Assembly: GCA_030525525.1 (NCBI GenBank)
Contig: JAUNEN010000024.1
Location: forward strand, 5,522-38,266
From: Erysipelotrichaceae bacterium
Lineage (GTDB): Bacteria; Bacillota_I; Bacilli_A; Erysipelotrichales; Erysipelotrichaceae
Direction: 5' to 3'
Length of the DNA: 32,745 nt
Each line of letters opens with the position of its first letter. The stretch's first letter is position 1. Below, piece by piece: positions 774 through 17,941 of the stretch. Under the pieces are notes generated by a model that saw only the letters and a list, made by a program, of their open reading frames with translations, ran no database searches and was not told where the DNA came from. Both the position numbers and the translations under genes were made by a program.

Positions 774-1922
774 ATGAAACTGGAACAATGGGAAAAAGAG
801 CCGTTATGGCTGAAAGTGCTGACACCGTATCTGAAAAAGAAACGTCTGCCTCAGCTGAAGGGAAAACCGGAAACAGGTAAATGGGTGCGGATCCCTCTGG
901 ATGGCTGCCTGGCTGCCAATGGGGAAAAGACCTACGCGGATTTCAGACTGGGCAGTGAAAACAGACTTCTGATCTTCTTCATGGGAGGCGGCGTCAGCTG
1001 GAATGAGTACACCGCTGCTCATCCCGCTTCTCTTTATTCAAAAGACAGAGACCTTGGCTTCTATACCATCCATATGGATCTGTTTACGGATCTCAGATTG
1101 AACAGCGGGATCTTCGCGGAAAGAAACGAGAATCCTTTCCGGGACTGGTCGAAACTGATTCTGATCTACGATACCGGTGATTTCCATGCCGGAACAGGAG
1201 ACTTCCCTTACACAGCCCAGGATGGCTCACAGAGGATCTGCCATCACCATGGCTATACCAATTACCGCAAGGCAATGGAAACCGTCATGAAGTTTGTGCC
1301 CGATCCTGAATGCATCGCCGTTACCGGCTGCTCGGGAGGCGCCTTCGGAGCAGCGCTGTTGACAGACGATGTCATGGAGCTTTATCCGGAATGCGGAAAC
1401 ATCATCAGCGTGATTGACAGCGGCTTCTTCCCGCTTCAAGGCTGGCATGACATCGCAGAGAATGTCTGGAAATCCCCCGAAAAGATTACAGACCGGATTC
1501 ATTCGGACAGCATCACACTCGACGCCCTGCAGGCTTTAAGCAAGGAGAGACAGGACAGAGTGAAAATCCTGGTGACCTGCTCAATACGTGATGAAGGCTT
1601 GTCCAGGATGATCAACTATATTGAAAACGGACAATTCACTTTCACAAAAGAAAGCGGTCAAAGATTTCAGGAATGGTTTGCCGCAACTGTGAAGGAAATG
1701 AAAGAAACAATCCCGCAGGCACAGTTTTATATCACTGACTGTCCTGAGAAAAAACAGAAGGAAACAGGTCTTACAAAGCACTGCCTCCTGCAGGATCCGG
1801 TCTTCTATGATTACCGGATCGAAGGAACCAGCTGCGCACAGTGGATCAAAGAGGCAATCCTGGGAAAACAGGAAAATATCGGAATGAAACTGCTGGAGGA
1901 CACATATGAGCAGATGGATTAA
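774..1922 (+). CDS. Pectin-acetylesterase-like (CE13/Notum fold) hydrolase, copy 1
   Basis: A 382-residue alpha/beta-hydrolase. It resembles the pectinacetylesterase/Notum family: a GGGVSW oxyanion-type loop (71-76), a YDTGDFHAG segment (132-140), HHHGYTNY (157-164) and the nucleophile elbow GCSGG with Ser187. Asp273 (CSIRDEG) and His336 (TKHC) are the best candidates to complete the triad. The family removes acyl, usually acetyl, groups from polysaccharides or other acceptors. Secreted relatives carry signal peptides and disulfides; this one starts with a charged, non-hydrophobic N-terminus and so is probably cytoplasmic. It starts 3 bases after the MBL gene and its 3' end overlaps the next gene by 17 bases. 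A paralogue with the same motifs lies at 5798-6928. The family call rests on motif pattern only; the substrate is unknown. Confidence 0.8.
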   Translation: MKLEQWEKEPLWLKVLTPYLKKKRLPQLKGKPETGKWVRIPLDGCLAANGEKTYADFRLGSENRLLIFFMGGGVSWNEYTAAHPASLYSKDRDLGFYTIHMDLFTDLRLNSGIFAERNENPFRDWSKLILIYDTGDFHAGTGDFPYTAQDGSQRICHHHGYTNYRKAMETVMKFVPDPECIAVTGCSGGAFGAALLTDDVMELYPECGNIISVIDSGFFPLQGWHDIAENVWKSPEKITDRIHSDSITLDALQALSKERQDRVKILVTCSIRDEGLSRMINYIENGQFTFTKESGQRFQEWFAATVKEMKETIPQAQFYITDCPEKKQKETGLTKHCLLQDPVFYDYRIEGTSCAQWIKEAILGKQENIGMKLLEDTYEQMD

Positions 1923-2868
1923 CGACATGATCTGCAGAGGACTGCAGAAAATAATTTACTCAACAGCATACAAGGGGCATAAGCCGAATGAATGGAACCC
2001 CTGGAAAGAACCGGGAAAAGTTCAGATGGATAACGGCGTGATCCTGCATAACGATGTCTGCTATGGAAAGAATTATCCCAACAGCTTCGCGGACATCTGG
2101 CTGCCGGACAATACAGATCAAAAGTATCCGGTCGTTGTTTATCTCCATGGCGGCGGCTTCATCTTCGGAAACAAAAGCTCTGGTGATCCTCTTTCGGCAG
2201 GAGAAGAAAAGACAGGCAAACTGATGAAGATCATTGAACAGGGATACGCGCTGGTCAACGCGGACTACGCACTGGCGCCACAGTACAGATTTCCTTCCCA
2301 GATCCGCCAGCTGGATGAGCTGTTCCGTTTCCTTCTGGATCATCAGGAGGAATACAGACTTGATATGAACCATGTATGCCTGTCAGGCGGCAGCGCCGGA
2401 GCGGACATGACTGAAATCTACGCTGCCTGCGTATGCAGTGATGAGTATGCCGGCAAGCTGGACGTGAAGCCGGTCATGACAAAAGAAAACCTCAGAGTTC
2501 TGGCAATCGATGAAGCGGCTCTTGATTCATCCGTATTTGATTCAAAGATGTATGCCATGCTGGGCTGCTGGACCGGGGCGAAGAAGAACACGCCGGAAGA
2601 TACGGCAATGATCAACGCAAAGAACTATCTCAGGGATTCCTATATTCCAAGCTGGATCAATGCTTCCAATGAGGGAGGGGATAACGGCTTCTTTATCAAA
2701 GAGGGAAGAGAGCTGAAGAAAGTGCTGGATCAGATTCATGTACCGAACGATCTGGTGTATTTTCCGTCAGAAAACCTTCCCCATGGATATATGGACAACG
2801 TTGGAAAAGAACCTCACGCAGACGAAGCATTTAACAGAATGATGTCATTTATTGAAAAACATATTTAG
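1906..2868 (+). CDS. Alpha/beta-hydrolase (HSL/BD-FAE-type esterase) 1
   Basis: A 320-residue esterase-like protein. It has the HGGG oxyanion-hole motif (81-84, in VVVYLHGGGFIFG), the NADYALAP strand typical of hormone-sensitive-lipase-type esterases, and a GGSAG nucleophile elbow with Ser163. A histidine near the C-terminus (LPHGYMD) is the likely catalytic base; the acid is not obvious. The ATG at 1906 follows a GGAGG at about 1895 and lies inside the end of the upstream gene, which suggests translational coupling. No signal peptide is visible. It probably removes an acyl group from the imported glycoside; the exact ester (acetyl, cinnamoyl or other) cannot be read from sequence. Confidence 0.87.
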   Translation: MSRWINDMICRGLQKIIYSTAYKGHKPNEWNPWKEPGKVQMDNGVILHNDVCYGKNYPNSFADIWLPDNTDQKYPVVVYLHGGGFIFGNKSSGDPLSAGEEKTGKLMKIIEQGYALVNADYALAPQYRFPSQIRQLDELFRFLLDHQEEYRLDMNHVCLSGGSAGADMTEIYAACVCSDEYAGKLDVKPVMTKENLRVLAIDEAALDSSVFDSKMYAMLGCWTGAKKNTPEDTAMINAKNYLRDSYIPSWINASNEGGDNGFFIKEGRELKKVLDQIHVPNDLVYFPSENLPHGYMDNVGKEPHADEAFNRMMSFIEKHI

Positions 2869-2879
2869 GGAGAAAGACA

Positions 2880-4355
2880 ATGGCAAAGGAAAAAATCAAC
2901 AAGCATCCGGACTGGCAGCTCAGTCGTTCGGAAAAGAACTGGTATTATGTCGGCGACACAGCACGTCTGTTCTGCACTTCACTGGTCGGATCATACATGA
3001 CCATGTTCCTTATGTTCCAGGGAATCAGTACCGTGTCACTGGCCACTTCGATCCTGTTTGTCAAAATCATTGACTCAGTGGATGATGTGCTGTTTGGCTT
3101 CATTATCGACAAAATTGATATTAAAAAATGGAAACTGGTTCAGCGGTTTGCCGGCAAAGGAAAGTACATGCCATGGTATCGTCTGTTCTTCTGGACTTTC
3201 CCTTTTGCGACAATTTTGTTCTTCATGATGCCGAAGAATGCACCGGATTCAGTGAAGATTATCTGGTTCTTTGTGACATATCTGCTTTATGACTTTACAT
3301 GCACACTTACAGAGGTGCCGATGCAGTCCATGATCACAACGCTTACGGACAGTCCATCCGAGAGAAACAGCATTCTGACCGTGAAGGGTGTCATCACAGT
3401 CATCGCCGCGATCGGAATGTCAGTGGTCGTTTCCGCACTGTTAAGCGAAAGATTCGGTGTTCCTCTGAAAAATATCGGTGTCGGCGGCGCATTGATCTTC
3501 CTGGTCTTCATGATTCCTATGGTGTTCAAGGTACAGGAACATAATACAGAACTTAAGAATGTTGAAAACGAGGGATCGCAGGAAAAGTATTCCTTCAAAG
3601 ACATGATCAACTGTGTATTCACAAACAAATACATCATGGTTTATTTCCTGGCCGTTATCATTTCAACCCTTCTCTGCACGCGTACTGCCGTGGAAGGTTT
3701 TATCGGCTTCTATATTTTCCACGATTCCATGATATTGACTTACGTTATGCTGATAGGGTTTGTGCCGGGTATTATTCTCAGCGCCTTCTGCGGCAAACTG
3801 GCAGATAAGTTCGGCAAGAGAAATCTTCTCGCATTCATCTTCGTCCTGCTGGCAGCTGCGACTCTGATTATTTACTTCTTCTGCCGCGACAACAAAATAC
3901 TGTTCATTGTTCTCGGCGGCCTGTGCGCAATCCCCAACGCACTCATCAGTGTGGTCAGAACATACATTGCGCCGGACACAATTGAATATACACGGTATAA
4001 AACAGGTAAAGACTGTTCGGGAATCTTCTATTCACTGCAGTCATTCCTGAACAAAGCGTTAACAGGTCTGGTCGGCTCTGTTGCCCTGTACATTCTTGCG
4101 GCCTCCGGCTGGAAGGAAGTCGTCGGGGACAGCTTCGCTGACCTGGCTGCCCAGGGCGTGACACAGTCGGCGGCTGCGCTCAATACTCTCTGGAATCTTG
4201 GCTATCTCATCCCTGCGGCCGGATTCGGAATCTCAGCAGTTCTGCTCTATCTGTTCTATAACCTGAAGGACAAAGACGCTGAACTGATGTCCAAATGCAA
4301 TGCCGGGCAGATTACACGTGAAGAGTGTGAGGCTCAGCTGAGCAGAAAGTATTAA
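2880..4355 (+). CDS. GPH-family (MelB-like) glycoside:cation symporter
   Basis: A 491-residue polytopic membrane protein with about 12 hydrophobic helices. The first helices hold the GPH-type acidic pattern IIDSVDDVLFGFIIDKID, comparable to the cation/sugar-binding Asp residues of helix II in MelB, followed by a basic cytoplasmic loop (KGKYMPWYR). The C-terminal part has the second inverted half (FCGKLADKFGKRN). This family imports glycosides, pentosides or hexuronides with Na+ or H+. It is the only transporter in the catabolic locus. Because its neighbours lack signal peptides, it presumably brings the whole acylated glycoside into the cytoplasm. The ATG at 2880 follows AGGGAGA 11 bases after the upstream stop. 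Confidence 0.92.
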   Translation: MAKEKINKHPDWQLSRSEKNWYYVGDTARLFCTSLVGSYMTMFLMFQGISTVSLATSILFVKIIDSVDDVLFGFIIDKIDIKKWKLVQRFAGKGKYMPWYRLFFWTFPFATILFFMMPKNAPDSVKIIWFFVTYLLYDFTCTLTEVPMQSMITTLTDSPSERNSILTVKGVITVIAAIGMSVVVSALLSERFGVPLKNIGVGGALIFLVFMIPMVFKVQEHNTELKNVENEGSQEKYSFKDMINCVFTNKYIMVYFLAVIISTLLCTRTAVEGFIGFYIFHDSMILTYVMLIGFVPGIILSAFCGKLADKFGKRNLLAFIFVLLAAATLIIYFFCRDNKILFIVLGGLCAIPNALISVVRTYIAPDTIEYTRYKTGKDCSGIFYSLQSFLNKALTGLVGSVALYILAASGWKEVVGDSFADLAAQGVTQSAAALNTLWNLGYLIPAAGFGISAVLLYLFYNLKDKDAELMSKCNAGQITREECEAQLSRKY

Positions 4356-4371
4356 TGACAGGTGAGTGATC

Positions 4372-5796
4372 ATGACCGATCTGAAAGAAAGACTGACGCG
4401 CTTTCTGCCGGAAAACTGTGAAATCACCCGGGCGGAAACGGTTCCTGCCGGTGACGATAAAAGCATTCCGGTGATGCCGATGAAAAACATTCCTGAGCAT
4501 GTTGCCGTCTGTGTAACGGCAAGACCTGTTTCGGAAAGCAATATCAGAATTGAACTGTGGCTGCCGGTTTCCGGATGGAACGGCGATCTGGCCGGCGTCG
4601 GCAATGGCGGTGCAGCCGGAATGATCCTGCCGATGATGCTGGCGGGTCCCCTGAAACTGGGATTTGCCGCAGTCACAACGGATCTGGGCACTTCCGCAGG
4701 TCCGGACTGCGGTATTGACAACAAAGCGGTCTGGAATGACTTCGGGCACCGCGCCACTCATATCATGACTGCTGTGGGCAAGGCCCTTACGGCAGGATAC
4801 TATGGCGAACAGGTCCGTCATTCCTACTTTATCGGCGGATCAACAGGGGGACAGCAGGCGCTGAGCGAAGCGCAGCGTTATCCGGAGGATTATGATGGCA
4901 TTCTGGCATGTGCGCCGGCTTATGACCGCGTTAATCTGCACCTGGCATTTCTTTGGGACTGGCAGCGTCTGAATGCCGAAGGAGTCCGTCCTTTTACGAA
5001 AAGACAGGAAAAGAAGCTGGTCAGAACTTTCCTGAAGAAATGCGCTGCAGAAGGGCAGCGCCGCAATAAAGATAAATTCTTTTACAGGCCTGACAAGATC
5101 ATGGTTACCCGCGAACTGCTGAAAGATGCCGGCGTGGATAAGACACAGCTTGATGCATTAATGGCGGTATATAAAGGCCTGCCGGGCGTCTATGAGGGAA
5201 CACTTACACCGGGAAGCGAAGGAAGCGGGATGGCGCTGGTCCATCGCTGTGAAAAGGAAAACTTTGACAAAAGCTTTTTCTACCTGTTCCGCTGGGTACT
5301 TGGTGAAGACTTCAATTTCATGGACTTTGATCTGAACCGGGATGGGAAACTTGTGCGTGAAGCACTGTCTTCCCATCTGGATGCGGTCAGTACTGATTTA
5401 ACGGCCTTTAAAAACCATGGCGGAAAACTTCTGCTCGTGCACGGCACAGCTGATCCGATCATCCCGATGACCAGTTCCATCCGTTATTACAAAGATGTTC
5501 AGAGGACAATGGGAGATACGTCTGATTTCTTCCGCATGTTCTTACTGCCGGGCATGGCCCATATCACCGGCGGCCCGGGTGTTCAGGACTTTGTCTACGG
5601 AATGCCGGCTGTACCGAAGGATGAAAAGCATCTGGGGTTATTAACTTTAAAGGCCTGGGTTGAAGAAGGCAAAGCACCGGATGAAATCTGTCCGGTCGCC
5701 TTTAAAAAGTTCCCGCCGCTCGCCGCTTTCAAAGAAAACGGAATAGCATGGGAGCGAAAGGTAATACCGTTCAAAAAAGATGACGGGGAAGAGTGA
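4372..5796 (+). CDS. Tannase/feruloyl esterase family hydrolase lacking the CS-D-HC cysteines
   Basis: A 474-residue member of the tannase family. Diagnostic segments are the LPVSGWNG strand, VTTDLGTSAG, the nucleophile block SYFIGGSTGG then AQRYPEDYDGILACAPA (Ser157), LLLVHGTADPIIP (Asp361) and LLPGMAHITGG (His397). A long insertion of about 185-345 corresponds to the lid domain. Characterised fungal members use a CS-D-HC arrangement in which a cysteine just before the serine bonds a cysteine just after the histidine. Here both positions are non-cysteine (Gly156 and Ile398), while Ser-Asp-His is kept. That fits a cytoplasmic enzyme, as does the absence of a signal peptide. I chose the ATG at 4372, five bases after AGGTGAG, over the GTG at 4366. 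The likely substrates are aromatic (galloyl or hydroxycinnamoyl) esters. Confidence 0.88.
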   Translation: MTDLKERLTRFLPENCEITRAETVPAGDDKSIPVMPMKNIPEHVAVCVTARPVSESNIRIELWLPVSGWNGDLAGVGNGGAAGMILPMMLAGPLKLGFAAVTTDLGTSAGPDCGIDNKAVWNDFGHRATHIMTAVGKALTAGYYGEQVRHSYFIGGSTGGQQALSEAQRYPEDYDGILACAPAYDRVNLHLAFLWDWQRLNAEGVRPFTKRQEKKLVRTFLKKCAAEGQRRNKDKFFYRPDKIMVTRELLKDAGVDKTQLDALMAVYKGLPGVYEGTLTPGSEGSGMALVHRCEKENFDKSFFYLFRWVLGEDFNFMDFDLNRDGKLVREALSSHLDAVSTDLTAFKNHGGKLLLVHGTADPIIPMTSSIRYYKDVQRTMGDTSDFFRMFLLPGMAHITGGPGVQDFVYGMPAVPKDEKHLGLLTLKAWVEEGKAPDEICPVAFKKFPPLAAFKENGIAWERKVIPFKKDDGEE

Positions 5797-5797
5797 T

Positions 5798-6928
5798 ATG
5801 AGAAAACATAAAATCATTCCGGATACCGGCGGCTGGACTCTGAAAGACAGACTGGTTTACCGTCTGATTACGGCCTTCCGTTATCCTGAGCTGCCTGAAA
5901 CGCCTGAAATCGGCAAGGGCTATGAGTATTGGCCGCAAGGAGCCGTAACAGCTGAAAACAAGCCGGTTTACGGCTGCATCCGTCCGGGAAAAGAAAACAA
6001 ACTGATGCTGTCATTCTGCGGCGGAGGCGTCTCTTTCAATGAGTATACAGCAGCCCGGCCGAATAAACCGGGAAACAGAGATAAGCAGAACTTCTATGCC
6101 GTTGAGGCGGAAACTGCCGACATTCTGCTGCGTACAGGAACCAACGGACGCTCAAAAAAGAATCCGTTCCGTGACTGGATGGTTGCCGTGTTTCCCTATA
6201 CTACGGGCGACTTCCACTGCGGCCGCAATGATTATCCCTATACGGACCTGAATGGAAACTCTCAGATTCTCAGACATCACGGATACATCAATTACAGGCT
6301 GCTGCTTGAAAAAGTCAGGGAACTGGTTCCAAATCCTGAAAAGCTGATTATCACCGGTTTTTCCGCCGGCGCATTCGGAACGGCACTGCTGGCAGATGAT
6401 ATCATCGGTGAATTTCCGGCCTGTCATGATGTTACGGTTATATGCGACAGTGCCATGATGCACAATAACTGGCAGACCATTGCGCGCGAAGTCTGGGATG
6501 CACCGGAAGAGATCAGCGCAAGACTGACCGGTACGGAAATCGTCACCGACAGTCTCATTGCCCTGCATAACAAACGCCCGGAAGTTAAAATCATGTACTG
6601 CTGCTCCAGCCGTGACTGGGCTTTGACCCAGTATGTCGGCTATCTGGAAGAAGACGGAAACTGGAATCCGGCAAGGAAAACAGGTGACCGTTTTCAGAAG
6701 CATCTTGTGGATATGGCAGATGCTCTTATGGCCGCAATTCCTGACATAGGACTGTTTTACTTTTACAAACCTGAACCCGCTTATAAGGAGGCGGATCTCA
6801 CAGCACACTGCATCCTGGCAAGTTCCGCCGCCTTCACTGTCCGTGAAGAAGGCATCACAGCAGCTGAATGGATGGAAAAAGGGGTCAATGGTGAAATGCT
6901 GAAGATCGGCCTGGCGCACCTGCGGTGA
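5798..6928 (+). CDS. Pectin-acetylesterase-like (CE13/Notum fold) hydrolase, copy 2
   Basis: A 376-residue paralogue of the protein at 774-1922. It has the same ordered motifs: GGGVSFNEYT, NPFRDW, YTTGDFHCG, HHGYINY, the nucleophile elbow GFSAG (Ser189), SSRDWALTQY (Asp273) and LTAHC (His337). The spacing of Ser, Asp and His is nearly identical in the two copies, which supports the triad assignment. I chose the ATG at 5798, just after GGGGAAGAG and the upstream stop, over an in-frame ATG at 5780 that lies inside the upstream gene. No signal peptide is seen. It is the last gene before the terminator at 6954-7003. Two diverged copies in one operon suggest two acyl positions or two acyl donors, which is inference. 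Confidence 0.8.
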   Translation: MRKHKIIPDTGGWTLKDRLVYRLITAFRYPELPETPEIGKGYEYWPQGAVTAENKPVYGCIRPGKENKLMLSFCGGGVSFNEYTAARPNKPGNRDKQNFYAVEAETADILLRTGTNGRSKKNPFRDWMVAVFPYTTGDFHCGRNDYPYTDLNGNSQILRHHGYINYRLLLEKVRELVPNPEKLIITGFSAGAFGTALLADDIIGEFPACHDVTVICDSAMMHNNWQTIAREVWDAPEEISARLTGTEIVTDSLIALHNKRPEVKIMYCCSSRDWALTQYVGYLEEDGNWNPARKTGDRFQKHLVDMADALMAAIPDIGLFYFYKPEPAYKEADLTAHCILASSAAFTVREEGITAAEWMEKGVNGEMLKIGLAHLR

Positions 6929-6953
6929 AAAAACCAATCAGAACAGCGCATAT

Positions 6954-7003
6954 GATATGTATCCTCTTACCGGCTCCGGCCTGCCTGGGTACATATCTTT
7001 TTT
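6954..7003 (+). terminator. Rho-independent terminator of block A
   Basis: An 11-base-pair stem (6954-6964 with 6987-6997, one G-U pair) encloses a GC-rich loop of about 22 bases and is followed directly by TTTTTT (6998-7003). It starts 25 bases after the stop of the second pectin-acetylesterase-like gene, so block A and block B are probably separate transcripts. Confidence 0.82.
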
Positions 7004-7143
7004 ATGCCAGTTCTCTGACATGATTTCTTTGGATGCATCTGATACAAACACCTTTCCGGTGTCTCATTTTCTATGAAACAATTGTCTCATAAGATACCGC
7101 TGTGATACATTTGTATCAGATGAAAACGGGGAGGGACAGACTT
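7004..7143 (+). promoter_or_regulatory. Control region of block B with nested inverted repeats
   Basis: Three symmetric elements are nested here. A perfect 13-base inverted repeat, CATCTGATACAAA (7036-7048) and TTTGTATCAGATG (7110-7122), flanks an 18-base palindrome ATGAAACAATTGTCTCAT (7073-7090, 8 of 9 pairs). The right arm also belongs to a local palindrome TGATACATTTGTATCA (7103-7118). The two larger structures share nearly the same centre (about 7079 and 7081). A weak promoter match is TTGTCT (7082-7087) with TACATT (7106-7111), which would place operators over both boxes. No regulator gene lies next to it. Confidence 0.6.
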
Positions 7144-9462
7144 ATGAAAAAGGAAAGATTCAATGAGGAATGGCTGTATCAGAAAGGCATCGGGACAGCG
7201 CTTGAAAAAACGATCCGGGGAGAAACAGCGGCAGAGAAAGTAACACTTCCTCATGACGCGATGATCCGTCAGAAGCGGGATGAACATGCACCCGCCGGCA
7301 ATGCGTCAGGATACTATCCATATACATCCGCCTGTTATACAAAGACATTCACTGTGGATGATGTATCTGAAACACTCTTCCTTGAATTTGAAGGAATCTA
7401 TAAAAACGCTTCCGTTTATCTCAACGGCAGCCTGATTGCACAGCACGCAAACGGATATACGCCGCTGCTGACAGATCTGTCTCAATATGTCAGACAGGGT
7501 TCAAACTTACTGAAAGTACTGGTCAGAAACAGTGTTCCTTCTTCACGCTGGTATCCGGGAACCGGCATCTACCGGGATGTCTGGCTGTACAGGGGAAAAG
7601 ATGTATTCATTGTGCCCCATGGTGTGAAAGTGACAGTCCTGCATGCGGACAAAGAATCAGCTGAGCTGAACATCAGCACTGAAATCGCTAACCGTCTGAG
7701 ATCACGCGCATCTTTACAGCTTGCACACCGGATCGGAAACGAAGAAATCAGAACGACAGTCACAATGGAACCGGGAGAAACAAAGACGGTAATACTTCGT
7801 TTCCATATAAAGAATCCGCGCCTGTGGAGTACTGAAAACCCGTCTCTGTATGAATGTCAGACAGAACTGTGCGGATATGACACCGAAACAGTCCGTTTCG
7901 GAATCCGTACCCTCTCTCTGGATCCGTTCAGAGGATTGCGGATCAATGGCGAGGAAACAAAACTCCGCGGCGGCTGCGTTCACCAGGATCATGGAATCAT
8001 CGGTGGAATCGAACATAAAGAGATGACATACCGGCGGATCAGAAAACTCAAAGAAGCCGGATACAATGCCATCCGCTGCGCCCATTTCCCCACAAGCCGG
8101 ACTGTGCTGGAAGCCTGCGATGAGCTGGGCATGCTGGTGATGCTGGAATTGTGCGACGCATGGACTGCTCCGAAAGTGGAAGGAGATTACTCCTGTGAAT
8201 TCCGCAGTGACTGGAAGCAGGATACGGAAGATATGGTGAGGCTGGCGTACAATCATCCTTCTGTCATCATCTACTCCATCGGCAATGAAATCTGTGAGGT
8301 CAGCGATCCTCATGAAGTGCAGTACGGCAGAAAAATCTCTGACCTGATCCGCAGCCTGGATCAGACAAGATATACAGTCAACTCCATCAATATGATTCTT
8401 GCCATGCTGGATAAAATACCTGAACTTGCCGTAAAAGCAGGAGTTGATATCAATTCCATTCTCAACGGCAATATGGAGGAACTCTACAAAGTTCTGATGT
8501 CAGATGAAATGGAAGAACCATTGGAAGAAGCTTTCAGCCAGACTGACATCGCCGGATACAACTACGCTGAATTCCGCTATGAAACGGATATCAGAAAGTA
8601 TCCGCAGCGTATCATTCTGGGAACTGAGTGCTATCCTGCCGCCCTGTATGAAAACTGGCGGCTGTGCATGAAACATCCGCAGATCATCGGCGACTTCGGC
8701 TGGGCAGCCTGGGATTATCTGGGTGAGGCCGGCGTCGGCCAGCTCCGCTATGGCGAGGGCGACAGCAATGATCTTTACGGAAAATATCCCTGGCGCTCAG
8801 CCGGCTGCGGAGATTTTGATCTGATTGGAAACCGCAGACCTGTCTCTTATTGGCGAGAGATTGTCTGGGGACTCAGAAAAGAACCTTATATCGCCGTACA
8901 GAATCCAGCCCATTACGGTGAGAAACAGGCACCGACAAAATGGGGATGGAGCGATGCGGAAAGACGCTGGAATTACCGCGGACAGGAAGGAAACCCGGTC
9001 ACAGTGGAAGTCTATTCCGATGCGGATGAAGTGGAACTCTATATCAATGAAAGACTGATCGGGAAAGAAAAGACCGTCTGTGACAAAGCTTTCTTTACAG
9101 CCGTGTTTGAACCGGGAATCATCAGAGCTGTCAACTTCCGCAATGGACAGCCGGCAGAAACAGATGAACTGGTTTCCGCTTCTTATGATGTGCATGTGGA
9201 ACAGAAAGAAACAGCAGAAGGAATCATTGAATTCACAGTCGTGGATGATTCAGGAATTCTGAATCCGGATGTGACTGTGAAAGTGACGGTCAGTAAAGAA
9301 AACAATCCGGAACTTCTGGGGCTTGGATCAGCTGACCCGGAAAGTGATGAAGACTATTTTGGAAGAACCATAAAAACCTGGCAGGGACGGGCAGCGGCCG
9401 TGATCAGGGGAACAGGCAAATTGGAAATTGAGGCAGAATATGAATCCGATGAACTTCATTAA
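7144..9462 (+). CDS. Glycoside hydrolase family 2 enzyme
   Basis: A 772-residue GH2 protein. The N-terminal jelly roll (about 1-155) has the sugar-binding fold segments LEFEGIYKNASVYLNG and RWYPGTGIYRDVW. An Ig-like domain (about 160-258) follows, then the TIM barrel (about 262-560) with LRGGCVHQDHG, YNAIRCAHFP, the acid/base motif SIGNE (Glu382) and the nucleophile motif ILGTECY (Glu495). A C-terminal Ig-like domain has VEVYSDADEVELYING-type sequence (here LYINERL). This GH2 subgroup includes beta-galactosidases and related exo-glycosidases; the sugar specificity is not decided. The ATG at 7144 follows GGGGAGG (7128-7134); an in-frame GTG at 7102 lies in the operator and is unlikely. There is no signal peptide. 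It is the first gene of block B and overlaps the next by 23 bases. Confidence 0.92.
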   Translation: MKKERFNEEWLYQKGIGTALEKTIRGETAAEKVTLPHDAMIRQKRDEHAPAGNASGYYPYTSACYTKTFTVDDVSETLFLEFEGIYKNASVYLNGSLIAQHANGYTPLLTDLSQYVRQGSNLLKVLVRNSVPSSRWYPGTGIYRDVWLYRGKDVFIVPHGVKVTVLHADKESAELNISTEIANRLRSRASLQLAHRIGNEEIRTTVTMEPGETKTVILRFHIKNPRLWSTENPSLYECQTELCGYDTETVRFGIRTLSLDPFRGLRINGEETKLRGGCVHQDHGIIGGIEHKEMTYRRIRKLKEAGYNAIRCAHFPTSRTVLEACDELGMLVMLELCDAWTAPKVEGDYSCEFRSDWKQDTEDMVRLAYNHPSVIIYSIGNEICEVSDPHEVQYGRKISDLIRSLDQTRYTVNSINMILAMLDKIPELAVKAGVDINSILNGNMEELYKVLMSDEMEEPLEEAFSQTDIAGYNYAEFRYETDIRKYPQRIILGTECYPAALYENWRLCMKHPQIIGDFGWAAWDYLGEAGVGQLRYGEGDSNDLYGKYPWRSAGCGDFDLIGNRRPVSYWREIVWGLRKEPYIAVQNPAHYGEKQAPTKWGWSDAERRWNYRGQEGNPVTVEVYSDADEVELYINERLIGKEKTVCDKAFFTAVFEPGIIRAVNFRNGQPAETDELVSASYDVHVEQKETAEGIIEFTVVDDSGILNPDVTVKVTVSKENNPELLGLGSADPESDEDYFGRTIKTWQGRAAAVIRGTGKLEIEAEYESDELH

Positions 9463-10339
9463 AAAGACAATATTCAACGCACGCTTTCACAGGGTCAATA
9501 AGCATTATGCGACGGATCCTGTCATCGGCCAGAGGGCAAAAATAGAACGGGAAGGCAAAGAGCCGGTGGAAGTGATTCTTTACTTTCCGAAGGAACAGAA
9601 AAACGCTCCGGTGTTTGTACAGATCCATGGCGGCGCCTGGGTCGGCATGGACGCGGTTGATGATGATCGCTACTGCCAGAGATTGAGCGAAGAGCTGGGA
9701 GCCTTTGTTGTCAACGTCAATTACAAAAGGCTGTACGACAGGAGTTTCCCGTATCCCCAGGAAGAGGTCGTCGATACGGTGAAATGGCTGAAGAAAAACG
9801 CGGAACAGCTCGGCATTGATCCGGACAGAATCGTGCTTTCCGGCGGCAGCGCCGGCGGCCATCTCACAGCCGGATCGGCGATCCTGCTGGCAAAGGAAGA
9901 TATTCAGATTGCCGGACAGATCATGGAAGTGCCTTTCCTGGATTTCACCGGAAGTATCCCGGTTGATTTCCCGGAAGGAAACAAACTGTATGACATGATG
10001 TTTTCCCTCTATCCGCCGGAGATTCCTCTGGACAGTGAAGTTCTTTCCCCGGCGGCCAGGATCACAGAAGAAACCCTGGAAAAGCTGTCTCCGGCTGTCA
10101 TCATCGTCTGCGGGAAAGATCCTCTGCATCCCCAGGGAGAGCGCTATGCGCAGCTGCTCAGAGCACACGGAAAACTTGCTGATCTGAAAAAATACGAAGA
10201 GGGCTATCACGGTTTCGGCACGGACAAAGCGGAAGAAATGCCGCTGCAGAACAGGCTCAGAGAAGACTGTTTCCGCTACAAGGCGGATATGGCCCGCCGT
10301 CTGTACGGAATGTATGGGCAGAAGAAAACGGAAGGATAA
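9440..10339 (+). CDS. Alpha/beta-hydrolase (BD-FAE-type esterase) 2
   Basis: A 299-residue esterase with HGGAW (63-67), the nucleophile elbow GGSAGGH (Ser137), VCGKDPL (Asp227) and GYHGF (His257), giving a complete Ser-Asp-His triad. The pattern fits the BD-FAE / acetyl-esterase group, which removes acyl or hydroxycinnamoyl groups from sugars. The ATG at 9440 is inside the end of the GH2 gene; an earlier TTG at 9428 is less likely. The next gene encodes a close paralogue: IHGGAWVG, an N-x-NY strand, PFPYPQ-like and PFLDFT segments are shared in the same order, so the two probably arose by tandem duplication. No signal peptide. Confidence 0.88.
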   Translation: MNPMNFIKKTIFNARFHRVNKHYATDPVIGQRAKIEREGKEPVEVILYFPKEQKNAPVFVQIHGGAWVGMDAVDDDRYCQRLSEELGAFVVNVNYKRLYDRSFPYPQEEVVDTVKWLKKNAEQLGIDPDRIVLSGGSAGGHLTAGSAILLAKEDIQIAGQIMEVPFLDFTGSIPVDFPEGNKLYDMMFSLYPPEIPLDSEVLSPAARITEETLEKLSPAVIIVCGKDPLHPQGERYAQLLRAHGKLADLKKYEEGYHGFGTDKAEEMPLQNRLREDCFRYKADMARRLYGMYGQKKTEG

Positions 10340-10343
10340 GCAT

Positions 10344-11225
10344 ATGAGCCTGAAAACGGAAATGATGAAAAAGATGATCCGCCTCAAAAGAGAACAGGAA
10401 GTGTGGAAAGACACAAAAGGGGAAATGCTTCAGGTCAAAAGAAAAAATGCGGATCCTGTGAATGTCTTCCTGTACCGTCCGCACAATACAGAAGCGCCTT
10501 ACCCGGTGATCTTCAACATCCATGGCGGTGCCTGGGTCGGCTGCGACGCCAGCGAGCTGGATTCCTATTGCCTGGACATGGCGGAAAAGTGCGGTGCCTT
10601 TATTGTCAACATCAATTACACCAAACTGGATATCCATCCGTTTCCGTATCCGCAGAATGAGATTGCGGATACAGTGAAATACTTCCTGGATCACAGCGAA
10701 GAATATCAGCTCGACAAAGGGAGATTTGCTGTCATGGGATTCTCAGCCGGCGGCCATCTGGCCGCGGCATCCACGCTGATCCTCCATGATCAGGGCATTG
10801 ATCTTTCTGCCCAGGTGTTGTGCTATCCGTTCCTGGATTTCACGAAATTCAACGGCCTGCTCGATGATAAGACCATGGATGTCATGAAAGAGGTCTTCTT
10901 CCCGGAAGGCGTATCGGCAAATGATCCGTATATTTCACCTGTTGCTGCTGCCGGAGAACAGCTGAAAGGAATCGCGCCGGCTGTCTTTGCGTGCTGCGGG
11001 ACAGATCCGCTGACAGAACATTCGCGAAAATACAATGAACTGCTGAAAGAAGCGGGAGTCAGTACAGAATTCAGAGTGTGGGAAAAAGCACTGCACGGAT
11101 TCCTTGAAGTCAACCATAAAGAATACCCTGATCAGGACGCGAAAAATCCCGCGCAGGAAGCTTACGCAAAAGAAGCAGAAAACTATATTGCCGAAGAATT
11201 GAAAAAGATCTGGAGGAAAGCATGA
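10344..11225 (+). CDS. Alpha/beta-hydrolase (BD-FAE-type esterase) 3
   Basis: A 293-residue paralogue of the preceding gene. Motifs are IHGGAWVGCDA (HGGAW at 60-64), GFSAGGH (Ser134), CCGTDPL (Asp221) and ALHGF (His251), a complete triad. The chosen ATG at 10344 lies 4 bases after the previous stop, with GGAAGGA (10330-10336) as the ribosome-binding site; the in-frame ATG at 10314 lies within the upstream gene. Its stop overlaps the next start as ATGA. The N-terminal 25 residues are basic and helical, not a signal peptide. It is probably a cytoplasmic acyl esterase with a specificity different from its twin, since the regions between motifs have diverged. Confidence 0.88.
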   Translation: MSLKTEMMKKMIRLKREQEVWKDTKGEMLQVKRKNADPVNVFLYRPHNTEAPYPVIFNIHGGAWVGCDASELDSYCLDMAEKCGAFIVNINYTKLDIHPFPYPQNEIADTVKYFLDHSEEYQLDKGRFAVMGFSAGGHLAAASTLILHDQGIDLSAQVLCYPFLDFTKFNGLLDDKTMDVMKEVFFPEGVSANDPYISPVAAAGEQLKGIAPAVFACCGTDPLTEHSRKYNELLKEAGVSTEFRVWEKALHGFLEVNHKEYPDQDAKNPAQEAYAKEAENYIAEELKKIWRKA

Positions 11226-12253
11226 TGAAAAGCGAAGTGATCGTAATGAACGAAGAAAGAAATGTCACTCTGACCGCATATATTCAGGAAGCAGGCGGAG
11301 AATTCGGTTTTGAGAAACGTCCGGCCATGCTGGTAATGCCGGGCGGCGGTTATGCCATGTGCTCCGACAGGGAAGCGGATCCGGTCGCCATGACATATCT
11401 TCAGGCCGGCTATCAGGCCTTTATCCTGAGATACACCACCAACAAAAAGGGAAAGTGGCCGATGCCTCTGGAAGATTATGAAGAAGCGATGGAAATCATC
11501 CGGAGCAGAAGCGAAGAATGGCATATCGATGCTGATAAGATCGTCATTTCCGGTTTCTCCGCCGGTGGCCATCTGGCGGCTGTCGCTGCCACTCAGGCAA
11601 AGCACAGACCTGCCGCCGCGGTTCTGGTCTATCCTGCGATTCTTGAAGATATCGTGGATATGTGCCAGCCCGGCATGCCGTATCCGTATCAGAATGTCAC
11701 AAGGGAAACATGTCCGTGCTTCTTCGCTGCCTGCCGTGATGACAAGACAGTGGATATCACAAACACTCTGCGCATGGAACTTGCGTTAGCCGAACACGAT
11801 ATTCCGTTTGAAAGCCATATTTATTCTTTCGGCAGCCATGGTTTCTCGACCGGTGAAGACTGGGTCATCACCAACGGCGTCTCGGAAAGAGTTCCCAACT
11901 GGACAAAAGACAGTATCGGCTGGCTGAAAGAGACACTCGGAAAACTGACCTATCACGGCTTTGAAGAGCCGGAACAGAGAGTGTCGCTGAATGCGGACTA
12001 TGCTCCGGTATTGAGTATCGCATGTTCGCTTGGCCATATGAAAAAACAGAATGAGGAAGTCCAGACTTTGCTCAGACCGATGTACGACGGCATGGCTCTT
12101 GTCGCAAAGGCAAGAGGCTACCAGCTGGAAGGACTGCAGCTTGTCTTAAGCAAAAACACGGTCAGTGAGATCATGGAAATGCTGCAGATGGCACCGAAGG
12201 AAATCAAAGAGATTGATACCGTTCTGCACGGTATTGTCAATGAACTGGAATGA
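11222..12253 (+). CDS. Alpha/beta-hydrolase 4 with C-terminal helical extension
   Basis: A 343-residue protein. Residues 1 to about 243 form an alpha/beta-hydrolase of the acetyl-xylan-esterase-like type: LVMPGGGYAMCSDRE (oxyanion loop PGGGY at 40-44), GFSAGGHLAA (Ser113), AACRDDKTV (Asp173 or Asp174) and FGSHGF (His206). The catalytic fold normally ends near the WLKETLG helix (about 235-240). Here about 100 more residues follow, of which roughly 257-342 are predicted helical and rich in Met, Leu, Lys and Glu, with no family I recognise. Tandem ATG codons stand at 11222 and 11225, the first forming an ATGA overlap with the upstream stop, after GGAGG (11212-11216). The extension may mediate oligomerisation or partner binding (inference). 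Confidence 0.85.
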   Translation: MMKSEVIVMNEERNVTLTAYIQEAGGEFGFEKRPAMLVMPGGGYAMCSDREADPVAMTYLQAGYQAFILRYTTNKKGKWPMPLEDYEEAMEIIRSRSEEWHIDADKIVISGFSAGGHLAAVAATQAKHRPAAAVLVYPAILEDIVDMCQPGMPYPYQNVTRETCPCFFAACRDDKTVDITNTLRMELALAEHDIPFESHIYSFGSHGFSTGEDWVITNGVSERVPNWTKDSIGWLKETLGKLTYHGFEEPEQRVSLNADYAPVLSIACSLGHMKKQNEEVQTLLRPMYDGMALVAKARGYQLEGLQLVLSKNTVSEIMEMLQMAPKEIKEIDTVLHGIVNELE

Positions 12254-12264
12254 GGAGAACAGAC

Positions 12265-14700
12265 ATGCAGAGATTCACAGACAAGACAGTCAGAGATTTT
12301 GAAATCAGACATAACGAAGCACTCAGAATAATCGCTCCGGAGTGCACCGTTCTTTTAAAGAAAAACGGTGACTTTCCTTTGAACGGACCGTGTAAACTCG
12401 CTTTATACGGCAGCGGCGCCAGACAGACCATAAAAGGCGGAACCGGCTCCGGCGATGTGAACGTCCGTCATTTTACGACCTGCGAAGAAGGCATGGAAAA
12501 AGCAGGCTTTACGATCGTCTCGAAAGACTGGATGGACAGATATGACGCATGCAAAGCGGATAATACCGTAAAGTTTTACCGGCAGATCAGGGAAGAAGCG
12601 GAAAAGAAAAAGATACCGGTGATTGCGGCGGCACTTGGCAAAACGCCGGATGAACCGGAATATGATTTTCCGATCGATTCCGATGCGGATGTCTGCGTTT
12701 ACGTTCTGGCAAGAAACAGCGGCGAAGGATCCGACCGGCAGATCAAGAAAGGTGATTATCTTCTGACGGATGATGAAGTCAGAGACATTCACCGCTGCGC
12801 TGAGAAATATGCAAGGTTCCTTCTTGTATTGAATGTGGGCGGTCCGGTTGATCTTTCACCAGTTACAGACAGCGTTGAAAACATTCTGCTGCTGGGACAG
12901 CTGGGGACGGTAACCGGCGATGTGCTGGCTGATATTATCCTTGGCAAAAGCTTTCCTTCCGGAAAACTTACTGCCACCTGGATCAAAGCGGAAGATTGTG
13001 ATGTGATTCAGAATTACGATCTCAACGATACCTGCTACAAAGAAGGAATCTATGCCGGCTACCGTTATTATGACACAGCAGACTGCAAGCCCCTGTTCCC
13101 GTTCGGCTATGGAATCAGCTATACGGAATTTACCAAAGAAATCACTCACACAGAGCTGAAAGACAATGAGCTCTCTGTCACTGTCAGAGTTATGAACACA
13201 GGCAATTTCCAGGGAAAGGAAGCGGTTCTTCTTTATTACAGTGCTCCCAAGGGAACACTGAACAAGCCGCTGAAGGAACTTGGAACCTATGGAAAGACAC
13301 ATGAATTGCAGCCGGGTGAAAGTGAGGAGATCACACTTCGTCTGCCACTGGAAAACATGGCTTCTTACAGTGAGGAACAGTCTGCCTGGATTCTGGAAAA
13401 AGGAGATTACCGGATCATCGCGGACAGTATGAACGTCTGCGCAGTCAGAGTAAATGAGACTGTCAACGTCCTTGAAACAACAGCTCTGCATATCAATACC
13501 GGTTTTGAAGACAGATCCGTTCTTCTTCCTGAAACGGATGAAGAAGGACTGAAAGTCTTCGAGGCGGATGTTCGGGGACTGAAAGACATCGGTCACTTTG
13601 ACAGAAACAGGATGCCATATCCTGAGAACGAACAGATCGCTCTCTCTGGTTTTACGGATGAAGAACTGATTCGGACATGTATCGGCAGATTTGATGAAAA
13701 CAGCAGTACTTCCATTATCGGAAATGCCGGCAACGCGGTGGCAGGCGCAGCTGCGGAAAGCCCGGATTTCTTCAGCGAAAAAGGCTTTGGAAAACTGATC
13801 CTTGCGGACGGTCCGGCCGGATTGCGTCTGGCAACCAGCTACATCCTCAAAGACGGTGCGGCTTTCGGCAATGAATTTGCGGCGATGGAAAACATTGTGC
13901 AGTTTCTTGATGAACCGCTCAGATCTGTTGTGCAGGCAAAGATCGACACGATCAGAAAAATCAGTGAATCTGAGAAAAAGTATTATCAGTTCACTACCGC
14001 AATTCCGATCGGTACTGCGCTTGCCCAGGCTTTCAATCCGCAGGTTCCGGAAATCTGCGGGGATATCGTCGGCGAAGAAATGGAAATTTACGGAATCAAT
14101 ATCTGGTTGGCTCCAGCTCTGAATATTCAGAGAATGCCGTTATGCGGCCGCAATTTTGAATACTGCTCTGAGGATCCGGTGGTATCGGGTCTGACAGCGG
14201 CAGCGGTTGTCAGAGGTGTTCAGAAACATGAGAAATGTTCCGTGACGATCAAGCACTTTGCCTGCAATAACCAGGAATACAACCGCTTTGGCTCCAACAG
14301 TATCGTTTCCGAAAGAGCTTTGAGAGAAATCTATTTAAAAGGATTTGAGCTCTGCATCAAGCAGTCAGCACCCAAATGCATCATGTCTTCCTACAATCTT
14401 CTTAACGGAACTCATACCGCAAACCATTATGATCTTCTGACAACCGTTCTGAGAAAAGAATGGGGCTTCGGAGGAGTCGTCATGACTGACTGGGGAACAA
14501 CCAGTGACCGTCTGAATCTTGGAACCTATGGCGCAAGTGACGCCGCACTGTGTATCAAAAGCGGCAATGACTGGATTATGCCGGGCTCACAGCCTGACTG
14601 CGACCGGATCGCACAAGCACTGGAAAACAAAGAAATCTCAAGAGAGGATCTTGAAACATGCGCCGCCAGAATTCTGGCACTCAGCAGGGAGTTATCATGA
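12265..14700 (+). CDS. GH3 beta-glycosidase with swapped domain order
   Basis: An 811-residue GH3 enzyme with the sandwich domain first and the catalytic barrel last. Residues about 10-240 form the (alpha/beta)6 sandwich, with LALYGSGARQTIKGGTGSGDVN and RNSGEGSDRQ, whose Glu is the candidate acid/base. Residues about 300-395 form the FnIII-like domain (VTVRVMNTGNFQGKEAVLLYY). Residues about 450-810 form the TIM barrel with LADGPAGLRL, GRNFEYCSEDP, IKHFACNNQE and VMTDWGT (nucleophile Asp742). Canonical GH3 enzymes have the barrel first; this order is known from some rumen and gut Firmicutes beta-glucosidases. The ATG at 12265 follows GAGGAG; an ATG at 12250 overlaps the previous stop. No signal peptide. 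It probably removes beta-glucose from the deacylated glycoside. Confidence 0.93.
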   Translation: MQRFTDKTVRDFEIRHNEALRIIAPECTVLLKKNGDFPLNGPCKLALYGSGARQTIKGGTGSGDVNVRHFTTCEEGMEKAGFTIVSKDWMDRYDACKADNTVKFYRQIREEAEKKKIPVIAAALGKTPDEPEYDFPIDSDADVCVYVLARNSGEGSDRQIKKGDYLLTDDEVRDIHRCAEKYARFLLVLNVGGPVDLSPVTDSVENILLLGQLGTVTGDVLADIILGKSFPSGKLTATWIKAEDCDVIQNYDLNDTCYKEGIYAGYRYYDTADCKPLFPFGYGISYTEFTKEITHTELKDNELSVTVRVMNTGNFQGKEAVLLYYSAPKGTLNKPLKELGTYGKTHELQPGESEEITLRLPLENMASYSEEQSAWILEKGDYRIIADSMNVCAVRVNETVNVLETTALHINTGFEDRSVLLPETDEEGLKVFEADVRGLKDIGHFDRNRMPYPENEQIALSGFTDEELIRTCIGRFDENSSTSIIGNAGNAVAGAAAESPDFFSEKGFGKLILADGPAGLRLATSYILKDGAAFGNEFAAMENIVQFLDEPLRSVVQAKIDTIRKISESEKKYYQFTTAIPIGTALAQAFNPQVPEICGDIVGEEMEIYGINIWLAPALNIQRMPLCGRNFEYCSEDPVVSGLTAAAVVRGVQKHEKCSVTIKHFACNNQEYNRFGSNSIVSERALREIYLKGFELCIKQSAPKCIMSSYNLLNGTHTANHYDLLTTVLRKEWGFGGVVMTDWGTTSDRLNLGTYGASDAALCIKSGNDWIMPGSQPDCDRIAQALENKEISREDLETCAARILALSRELS

Positions 14701-17066
14701 TCAGCACAAATGCGCTGTGGATCTCACATCCGCAGGACACAAAACAGAATCCGCTGATTCCGGTATTCCGGAAGTCATTTGAAGTCAGAGCAGGGCTTCT
14801 TTCCGCTTCTGTGACGGTGACTTCTCACGGAATCTACCATACTGAGATCAATGGCAGAGAAGTGACAGATCACCGGTTCACGCCCGGCTTTACCAGCTAT
14901 TATCACCGGATTCAGTATCAGACCTATGACATTACAGCTCTTGTAAACGAAGGGACAAATGTCTGGCAGACAACAGTCGGGGACGGCTGGTGGAGATGGC
15001 ATAACAATTTCGGTTATACACTTTCCTTAAAAGGCGAGATCACACTCCGCTATGAAAGCGAAACAGTCACCATTCCGACAGATACATCGTTTGATGTCAC
15101 TGCCGGAAAATTGATTTCTTCTGATTATCTCAAAGGTGAAGTCTTCGATCACCGAAGAGAACTGAACAGCTGGGTCAAAGCTGCTGTGTGCCATGAACAT
15201 ACAGAAGGAACACTCATTGAAACGGAAGGCGTTCCGGTCACTGAGCACGAAGTGTTTGAAGGCAAACCTTTCAAAGACGCATCGGGAAATCTGGTAATTG
15301 ACTTCGGCCAGAACATCGCAGGCTATGTATCCATGAAACTGTTCCATACAAAGCCGGGTCAGACAGTCCGTCTGAAACATGGCGAGGGTCTGGATCTGAA
15401 TGGAAACTTCTCCACTGCCAACTGCGATGGCGGTCTGGATCGTTTTCAGGAGGTCACCTATATCTGCAAAGGCGCAGAGGCGGAAGAATACAAACCGTAT
15501 TTCACATGGTTCGGATTTCGATATGTACTTGTGGAAGGTATTGAAGATGCAGAGTTCAAAGCCATCGCCGTCTATTCCGACATGGAAGAAACCGGTGATT
15601 TCAGATGTTCCGATGAACTGATCAACAAACTGGTTGAAAATGCCAGATGGTCGCAGAAAGGCAATTTTCTGGATGTCGCAACAGACTGCCCGACCAGGGA
15701 AAAGAACGCATGGACAGGAGACGCGGCAATCTATTGCCGTACTTCCGCATATTTCATGAATGTTAAGACTTTCTATGAAAAGTGGCTGAAGGATCAGACC
15801 ATAGAACAGTTTGCCTCCGGAAAGCTCGGAATCACTTTTCCGTCCACTTCAAGTGTTCACAATCCGGATGAACTGATCGAAGTCCGGAAAACAAGGCCGG
15901 ATATGGCTCTTGCCGGTCCGCAGGGAGAGGGCAATATCGGCGAAGACTCGGTGGGCTGGGGTGACAGTTCAGTCGTGATTCCGTATCAGCTCTATCAGAT
16001 GTATGGAGACAAAACAATTCTGGCAAACCACTATGAAACCGCCAAGAGGTGGGTAAACTTCTCTCTGAACTGCATGAAGGAAGCCAATCCTCTCTATAAA
16101 GAGGAGGAGTGGTACAAAAACGCGGAAGGTGATCTGATCTATGACACCCGATTTCATTATGGTGAATGGAATGAGCCGCTTCCTCCGGCAAAAGAAGTCA
16201 TTGAATTATTCGCAAACGGCGGCAAACCGGAAGACTTCGTCCGTCATATGGCAAAGTATGGCAAACCTGAAACAGCGACCGCCTGTACAAAACACAGTTG
16301 TGATCTGCTTGCTTATATGGCAGAAGTGCTGGGAAAGACAGAAGATGCGAAATTCTATAAACAGAAGGCAGCCCAGCTGAAGTATGCCTATGACCGCTAT
16401 CTGATCGCAGAAGACGGTACCATTCAGGAAGGCCATCAGGCCGCCTATGTCAGGGCGCTTGCCTATGACATGGTCAGCGAAGAAAAAAAGCCGCTGGTGA
16501 TTCGGCAGCTGAAAAAAGAAATCGAAGCGGCGGAATATCATCTGAATACCGGATTTCTTTCCACAGGAATCTTATTGCCAGTGCTGTGTGACAGCGGATT
16601 AAAAGAAGAAGCTTTTAAGCTGCTGGAACAGAAAGCCGCTCCCTCCTGGCTTCATCCCGTCACACTCGGTGCGACCACAATGCTGGAAAACTGGAACGGC
16701 ATGGATGTCTTCAGGGACAGTTTCAACCACTATTCCTTAGGCGCGGTATGTCAGTTCCTGTTTGAGTACGTGGCAGGGATCAGACCTGTAAAACCGGGAT
16801 TTAAGGAATTTGAACTGAGTCCCGTGACCGGAGGAAGTCTGACCTGGGCTGAGGGCAGCTATAAGACTCAATGCGGAACAATCCTCTCCCGCTGGCAGCG
16901 CGATGGCGATCATGTCAGTTATACGTGTCAGGTTCCATCCGGAACAGAAGCGCATCTGACACTGCCGGACAATCAGGAATACAGTCTTACCGCCGGAACA
17001 TATCATTTTCAATTCAATCTTCAAAATAAAGAGATGCACATGACAGAAATGGAGGAGTGTATATGA
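14697..17066 (+). CDS. GH78 alpha-L-rhamnosidase
   Basis: A 789-residue GH78 enzyme. The N-terminal beta domain (about 15-115) has LLSASVTVTSHGIYHTEING and a YDITALV segment; a second beta domain contains VIDFGQNIAGYVS (about 200). The (alpha/alpha)6 catalytic barrel has DCPTREKNAWTGDA (Asp330, Glu335 in the general-acid region), GWGDSSVVIPY, and TTMLENWNG (Glu664, matching the general-base WE-x-W motif) followed by SFNHYSLGAV, and then the C-terminal beta domain. It releases terminal alpha-L-rhamnose. The ATG at 14697 overlaps the GH3 stop as ATGA. No signal peptide, so it acts on imported substrate. No rhamnose isomerase, kinase or aldolase genes are in the window, so rhamnose must be handled elsewhere or exported. 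Confidence 0.92.
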   Translation: MISTNALWISHPQDTKQNPLIPVFRKSFEVRAGLLSASVTVTSHGIYHTEINGREVTDHRFTPGFTSYYHRIQYQTYDITALVNEGTNVWQTTVGDGWWRWHNNFGYTLSLKGEITLRYESETVTIPTDTSFDVTAGKLISSDYLKGEVFDHRRELNSWVKAAVCHEHTEGTLIETEGVPVTEHEVFEGKPFKDASGNLVIDFGQNIAGYVSMKLFHTKPGQTVRLKHGEGLDLNGNFSTANCDGGLDRFQEVTYICKGAEAEEYKPYFTWFGFRYVLVEGIEDAEFKAIAVYSDMEETGDFRCSDELINKLVENARWSQKGNFLDVATDCPTREKNAWTGDAAIYCRTSAYFMNVKTFYEKWLKDQTIEQFASGKLGITFPSTSSVHNPDELIEVRKTRPDMALAGPQGEGNIGEDSVGWGDSSVVIPYQLYQMYGDKTILANHYETAKRWVNFSLNCMKEANPLYKEEEWYKNAEGDLIYDTRFHYGEWNEPLPPAKEVIELFANGGKPEDFVRHMAKYGKPETATACTKHSCDLLAYMAEVLGKTEDAKFYKQKAAQLKYAYDRYLIAEDGTIQEGHQAAYVRALAYDMVSEEKKPLVIRQLKKEIEAAEYHLNTGFLSTGILLPVLCDSGLKEEAFKLLEQKAAPSWLHPVTLGATTMLENWNGMDVFRDSFNHYSLGAVCQFLFEYVAGIRPVKPGFKEFELSPVTGGSLTWAEGSYKTQCGTILSRWQRDGDHVSYTCQVPSGTEAHLTLPDNQEYSLTAGTYHFQFNLQNKEMHMTEMEECI

Positions 17067-17941
17067 GTATACTGGCGCTGGATATTGGCGGAACATTCAT
17101 TAAATGGGCGTCCGCAGAGGGGTATCGGCTGTGCGAAAAAGGGAAAGTACCCACGCCGCGCAAAAGCCTCGACGATTTCACCGCATGCATTGATGAGCTG
17201 TTCCATGCCGGAAAGTATGACGGCATTGCAATCAGCCTTCCTGGCACGATCGATCCTGACACGGGGATGATCTCGCAGGGCGGTGCCTTGCAGTACAACA
17301 ACAATGTCAACATGATTGAGTTTCTGGGAAGCAGATATCATGTACCGGTAAGCATCGAAAATGACGCGAGATGCGCTGCCCTTGCGGAAGCGGAAAACGG
17401 CACTTTGAAAGACGAAGAGTTCGGTCTTGTGATCGTGGTGGGCACCGGAATCGGATCGGCTCTGGTACACAAAGGTGAAATTCTTCGCGGTTCACACAAT
17501 TACGCAGGTGAACTATCCATGGCGCTCTGCGGCAGTGCACAGGATTTCGGGTTCAGTTTATTTTTCGGCAATCAGTGCGGAATGGAAGGATTTACACAGA
17601 CATTCAGAAACCAGCTGTCAGATCCGTCACTGACCGGAGAAAGCTTTATGGCAATGGTGGAATCCGGTCATGAGGAGGCTTCAACTCTGTTTGAATCCTA
17701 TTGCAGGAAATTTGCGGGAGTCCTGTTTACACTGCAGTTTGCGTATGATCCCGGAACAATCGTGATCGGCGGTGGAATCAGCGCAAACCCGCTGTTCATT
17801 GAGGGCATACAAAAACAATTTGAACAGTTATTCTCAGTTTTCCCGTTTAAGGTAAGGCATGCGGAAATCACAGCTTCCAGACAGGGAAACGACGCCAATC
17901 TCAGCGGTGCACTGGCAAACTATTACCGCCGGCACTGCTGA
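17063..17941 (+). CDS. ROK-family sugar kinase without the usual zinc motif
   Basis: A 292-residue ROK protein: phosphate loop ALDIGGT (5-11), AISLPGTID (57-64), the catalytic-base segment SIENDARCAALAEA (Asp101), GTGIGSALV (128-135) and VIGGGISAN near the C-terminus. There is no N-terminal helix-turn-helix, so it is a kinase and not a NagC-type repressor. The zinc site of typical ROK kinases (a GH pair after AGE, then CxCGxxGC) is not seen: AGELSMALCGS is followed by a different sequence. This resembles the zinc-free subgroup. The ATG at 17063, after GGAGGAG, overlaps the GH78 stop as ATGA. It ends the operon and probably phosphorylates the hexose (glucose or similar) released by GH3 or GH2. 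Confidence 0.9.
   Translation: MSILALDIGGTFIKWASAEGYRLCEKGKVPTPRKSLDDFTACIDELFHAGKYDGIAISLPGTIDPDTGMISQGGALQYNNNVNMIEFLGSRYHVPVSIENDARCAALAEAENGTLKDEEFGLVIVVGTGIGSALVHKGEILRGSHNYAGELSMALCGSAQDFGFSLFFGNQCGMEGFTQTFRNQLSDPSLTGESFMAMVESGHEEASTLFESYCRKFAGVLFTLQFAYDPGTIVIGGGISANPLFIEGIQKQFEQLFSVFPFKVRHAEITASRQGNDANLSGALANYYRRHC

Follow-up and report, generated by a model that had tools for sequence, protein, structure and literature searches.

Does the loss of the active-site disulfide from a tannase-family enzyme mean that the enzyme has moved to the cytoplasm? The question arises at a locus within a 32,745-nucleotide stretch of an Erysipelotrichaceae bacterium genome (contig JAUNEN010000024.1; hereafter, the window). 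In characterised members of the family, this disulfide, between the cysteines that lie beside the catalytic serine and histidine (CS-D-HC), is described as completely conserved (PMC7070470). A study of MHETase reports the bond as typical of the family and >80% conserved (PMC6461665); as this is not 100%, exceptions are already implied.

The window protein (474 amino acids) is encoded by an intact open reading frame at 4372-5796 on the + strand and matches the Pfam Tannase family (PF07519) with an E-value of 2.9e-64 and 218.2 bits, against a curated cut-off of 29.8. All three triad contexts of the family (GxSxGG, HGxxD and PGMxH) are present, as YFIG-G156-S157-TGG, HGTA-D361-P and PGMA-H397-I398-TGG. 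In alignments with solved feruloyl esterases, which contain GCSTGG and GHCSGG, G156 and I398 fall opposite both CS-D-HC cysteines. Thus, the motifs and the alignment bear out the original prediction that Ser157, Asp361 and His397 are retained while Gly156 and Ile398, which are fixed in orthologues, occupy the cysteine positions, and the protein lies outside the classical CS-D-HC group. The features of the gene are as follows, with positions within it computed from residue numbers.

4363..4365, + strand: in-frame TGA, 9 bases before the ATG, which excludes an N-terminal signal peptide
4372..5796, + strand: PF07519 tannase-family alpha/beta-hydrolase, without signal peptide, with Gly156/Ile398 at the CS-D-HC cysteine positions
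4834..4842, + strand: nucleophile elbow Gly155-Gly156-Ser157, with Gly156 in place of the first cysteine
5452..5454, + strand: catalytic Asp361
5560..5565, + strand: catalytic His397 and Ile398, the latter in the place of the second cysteine

Five same-genus orthologues, whose records bear the names Erysipelotrichaceae or Solobacterium (sheep jejunum and goat ileum appear in two of the titles), are 89-92% identical to the window protein; all have the Gly/Ile pair and lack a signal peptide. The same is true of a Ruminococcaceae relative (L009) with 62% identity. Across seven sequences, the window protein and its close relatives, the triad and the GNGG/GSTGG motifs are invariant. The dN/dS values of 0.09-0.12 between the window gene and the five same-genus orthologues show that purifying selection acts on the gene and that the Gly/Ile change is not a sequencing error. 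AlphaFold models of the window protein had mean pLDDT values of 36.5 (seven closely related sequences) and 35.3 (single sequence).

The best solved matches in a PDB sequence search, with E-values down to 1.5e-42, were fungal feruloyl esterases (AoFaeB, PDB 3wmt; 6g21; chains 6fat/8bhh), which by sequence share the Pfam family, triad and core. These enzymes carry the CS-D-HC bond, whereas the window protein lacks a signal peptide and all five family disulfides (see below). Ideonella sakaiensis MHETase (PDB 6qz1, 6qg9 and others; E-value 2.4e-29) belongs to the same family but keeps five bonds and a calcium site; none of the five bonds is present in the window protein. At an E-value threshold of 0.01, the matches comprised feruloyl esterases, MHETase and chains labelled carboxylic ester hydrolase, none of them named as a Lactiplantibacillus tannase. 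Clostridium butyricum CbTan2 is probably an intracellular tannase (PMC8958541). Like the window protein, CbTan2 is a tannase-type esterase without a signal peptide from an anaerobic member of the Bacillota, but it is of the Lactiplantibacillus type of bacterial tannase, which is separate from the fungal/PF07519 type (PMC8958541, PMC6461665). A 2019 review (Rivas et al., as cited in PMC8507159) names a "non-CS-D-HC" class of feruloyl esterases and tannases; by its name this class lacks the motif, as does the window protein, although it may comprise enzymes of other families. In the literature searched, which excluded most subscription journals, a cytosolic PF07519 branch free of disulfides was not described, and nothing on point was found on PF07519 members in Clostridia or on combined cluster functions. 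In its activity, the window protein may be either a feruloyl esterase or a tannase.

Signal peptides were called by a simple hydrophobicity rule of our own, not by SignalP. The N-terminus of the window protein has no hydrophobic stretch, setting it apart from the secreted enzymes of the classical group. The in-frame codons 5′ of the ATG at 4372 are ATC, GTG (an alternative start at 4366) and a TGA stop at 4363, making a hidden upstream signal peptide impossible in this frame.

To define the family cysteines, we took alignment columns with cysteine in at least half of the 31 signal-bearing relatives that have the CS-D-HC pair. This gave ten columns, the same number of cysteines as in the five disulfides of MHETase (PMC7568301). 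The window protein has lost nine of the ten, and since only C224 is left, with Ile243 at its partner position, all five family disulfides are gone. The four further disulfides conserved in the classical group are thus missing as well, with one of their eight cysteines kept. Also absent is the DGxxDG loop, taken here as a calcium loop, which adjoins C224 in many relatives. As read from the alignment, the disulfide loss is therefore larger than first noted, five bonds rather than one.

The window protein retains seven scattered cysteines. Three of these (C113, C180 and C293) never vary within the close clade but are missing from the next cytosolic relative, L045, whose gene was read through a frameshift solely to align it. 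As they are not common to L045 or L090-L092, we rejected them as a substitute disulfide for the wider clade. C16/C47 was rejected as the N-terminal family bond, as these cysteines are misaligned with the family columns and absent in L009. The alignment revealed no conserved replacement bond in the wider cytosolic clade.

The tannase-like gene is part of a cluster of thirteen same-strand genes, several of them overlapping, that extends from 222 to 17941. The order is MBL-fold, PAE-like, BD-FAE/Abhydrolase_3 esterase, GPH, tannase-like, PAE-like, GH2, three esterases, GH3, GH78 and ROK.

774..1922, + strand: pectinacetylesterase-like enzyme (PAE, PF03283), conserved in the cluster
1906..2868, + strand: BD-FAE/Abhydrolase_3 esterase
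2880..4355, + strand: GPH-type (MFS_2) cation symporter, with 95-98% identity across orthologous clusters
5780..6928, + strand: second PAE-like protein, scoring under the Pfam cut-off; its gene overlaps the last bases of the tannase-like gene
7102..9462, + strand: GH2 glycosidase
9428..12253, + strand: three tandem Abhydrolase_3/BD-FAE esterases (9428-10339, 10314-11225 and 11222-12253)
12250..14700, + strand: GH3 glycosidase with permuted domain order
14658..17066, + strand: GH78 alpha-L-rhamnosidase
17057..17941, + strand: ROK-family protein, probably a sugar kinase

Five same-genus genomes share this order to the limit of the compared DNA, which in L126 and L127 is the ROK gene; Est3 had no match in the cluster of L007. 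The gene for the 62% identical relative in L009 is flanked by GH78 and GH3, and that for a 29% identical relative in L124 is adjoined by a GPH symporter, a BD-FAE esterase and GH78. Thus, the association recurs in two further genomes. In the stretches read, no GPH or GH78 neighbours were found beside the genes for signal-less L045, L117-L122 or L125. No member of the cluster has a convincing signal peptide, while a CotH protein of the same window clearly scores as exported. Matches to the signal-peptide rule for PAE1 and GH78 involved starts at internal codons or were borderline. The neighbouring cluster proteins contain 3-21 cysteines each, apart from the truncated MBL open reading frame, which has none.

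Several other features were seen in and around these loci. In the GH3 protein (12250-14700), the C-terminal domain comes first, followed by an Fn3-like domain and the N-terminal (TIM-barrel) domain. The MBL-fold gene lies at the left edge of the window (1-770), and its same-genus copy in L004 encodes 284 amino acids; matches in this genome span two frames and break just before the window start, indicating a frameshift or an assembly error. On the same contig, ~3.4 kb to the left of the window, is a transposase-like OrfB_IS605/TnpB-type protein with a Cas12f1-like TNB domain (L128:736-2100). Between it and the window are a PAE-like gene (L128:2457-3614) and a PETase-like match below the cut-off (L128:3626-4588). 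Within the window, 21857-23893 (- strand) encodes a BlaR1-type M56 peptidase with a DUF4362 domain, and the exported protein encoded at 30581-32743, which runs off the window end, carries CotH kinase and Big_2 domains. In L045, the tannase-like gene of G543 (L045:7049-8613) is split by a frameshift and adjoins leucine biosynthesis genes.

To relate the cysteines to export, we examined 61 family members. These comprised the window gene and its orthologues, sequences drawn from the Ruminococcaceae record's family, order and class (for the class draws, we infer the label Clostridia), others drawn from the family to which one clostridial genome belongs, and plasmid-borne Pseudomonadota and Actinomycetota members, which make the sample uneven. 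Scans of viral contigs yielded a single relative (L105). Both CS-D-HC cysteines were present in 31 of 39 signal-bearing members and in none of the 22 signal-less ones, two of which keep one cysteine of the pair (Fisher p = 2.6e-10, a value that overstates the association because the rows are related). Signal-less members have four separate origins in a maximum-likelihood tree. The window protein falls in a signal-less Bacillota branch of 14 rows (support 99/96) that is nested among signal-bearing Pseudomonadota proteins with both cysteines; the existence of this signal-less branch supports the original suggestion of an intracellular branch. Both traits change together in 2.5 on average of just four independent contrasts, and never in opposite directions; with only four contrasts, a sign test cannot reach 0.05.

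The plot of cysteines against signal peptides cuts both ways, as the active-site pair is missing from eight of the 39 members with a signal peptide. Seven of these eight belong to the Pseudomonadota and have the following residues at the two positions.

Xanthomonas L024: Ala/Phe, all eight other family cysteines kept
Caballeronia L067: Gly/Ser, all eight other family cysteines kept
Variovorax L112: Gly/Gly, all eight other family cysteines kept
Variovorax L116: Gly/Ala, all eight other family cysteines kept
Microvirga L110: Asn/Gly, all eight other family cysteines kept
Agrobacterium L109: Ile/Gly, all eight other family cysteines kept
Thioclava L108: Asn at the first position, the second ambiguous, six other family cysteines kept

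The Thioclava gene is unannotated in its own record and is possibly a pseudogene. In the other six proteins, the active-site disulfide alone is lost and six different residue pairs take its place. The eighth member, clostridial L080, has a signal peptide and has lost nearly all family cysteines, so disulfide loss is possible in exported proteins. None of the eight shows the exact Gly/Ile pair, and secreted relatives sharing it, which would have counted against the proposed move, were thus not encountered in this set. There are therefore two types of loss: one, in exported enzymes, is confined to the active-site bond, and the other, in Bacillota, takes the entire set. The window protein shows the latter. 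Taken as a sign of the cytoplasm, loss of the pair fares unevenly: the window protein has no signal peptide, has lost five disulfides and has neighbours that look cytoplasmic, but because eight signal-bearing relatives are also pairless, the loss by itself is no mark of the cytoplasm.

All 22 signal-less rows are Bacillota, and all 23 Bacillota rows, signal-bearing L080 included, lack the pair. In this sample, a cytoplasmic location is therefore inseparable from an anaerobic Gram-positive lifestyle. It could be that anaerobic Bacillota drop disulfides in such proteins whether or not they are exported, and that a cytoplasmic location is a separate matter or, given non-classical export, wrong. 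Exported proteins of obligate anaerobes are reported to be kept free of cysteine (PMC12453122), and VKOR was not found in this genome or 59 relatives. We nevertheless regard this explanation as unlikely, as neither the window protein nor its neighbours have a convincing signal peptide and, with seven cysteines in the window protein and 3-21 in each neighbour, the cluster shows no general avoidance of cysteine.

A second explanation, to which we give little credence, is that the active-site bond is dispensable and drifts away repeatedly in any compartment, with Gly/Ile one of many neutral outcomes. This would account for the seven pairless, signal-bearing Pseudomonadota proteins, six with all eight other cysteines, and it fits the >80% conservation noted above (PMC6461665). 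It leaves unexplained both the loss of the other four disulfides from the same protein and the total lack of paired cysteines among signal-less members, and removal of the active-site bond from MHETase resulted in insoluble or unexpressed protein (PMC7568301). That the window protein is a degraded or inactive relic, as its distant kinship to solved members and its loss of the DGxxDG loop and disulfides might suggest, is scarcely credible given the triad and GNGG/GSTGG motifs invariant in seven sequences, a dN/dS of about 0.1 and the conserved cluster.

The model we consider probable is that the window protein is a cytoplasmic PF07519 serine esterase, descended from secreted five-disulfide ancestors, that acts on imported acylated, rhamnose-containing plant glycosides. 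The signal peptide, all five disulfides and the DGxxDG loop would have been lost within the anaerobic Gram-positive lineage in which the gene now occurs. Catalysis would rely on the Ser157-His397-Asp361 triad, and the oxyanion hole would lie close to the GNGG and GST motifs; glycine and a hydrophobic residue would fill the former cystine positions. The cluster suggests import followed by intracellular deacylation and deglycosylation of these glycosides. The GPH symporter would take up a plant glycoside or oligosaccharide that is acylated and contains rhamnose. Aromatic and acetyl esters would be cleaved off by the tannase-like enzyme and the other esterases, and sugars by GH78, GH3 and GH2, while the ROK kinase would phosphorylate a released hexose. 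The data show the sequence, the catalytic residues, the cysteine losses, the lack of a signal peptide, the conserved cluster and the nesting in the tree; the folded enzyme's location, the order of events, the substrate class and the transport specificity are what we infer. Acylated flavonol rhamnosides and acteoside-type glycosides are, we presume, compounds that match the enzyme set of the cluster.

More tentatively, Bacillota may have internalised secreted tannase-family esterases several times, with loss of the signal peptide and the entire set of disulfides on each occasion, and, in this lineage at least, may have recruited them to an import-then-deacylate pathway for acylated, rhamnose-containing plant glycosides. 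Natural disulfide-free members would reveal other means of holding the active site together and should express more easily in the ordinary E. coli cytoplasm, while the cluster points to cytoplasmic handling of acylated plant glycosides in ruminant-gut bacteria.
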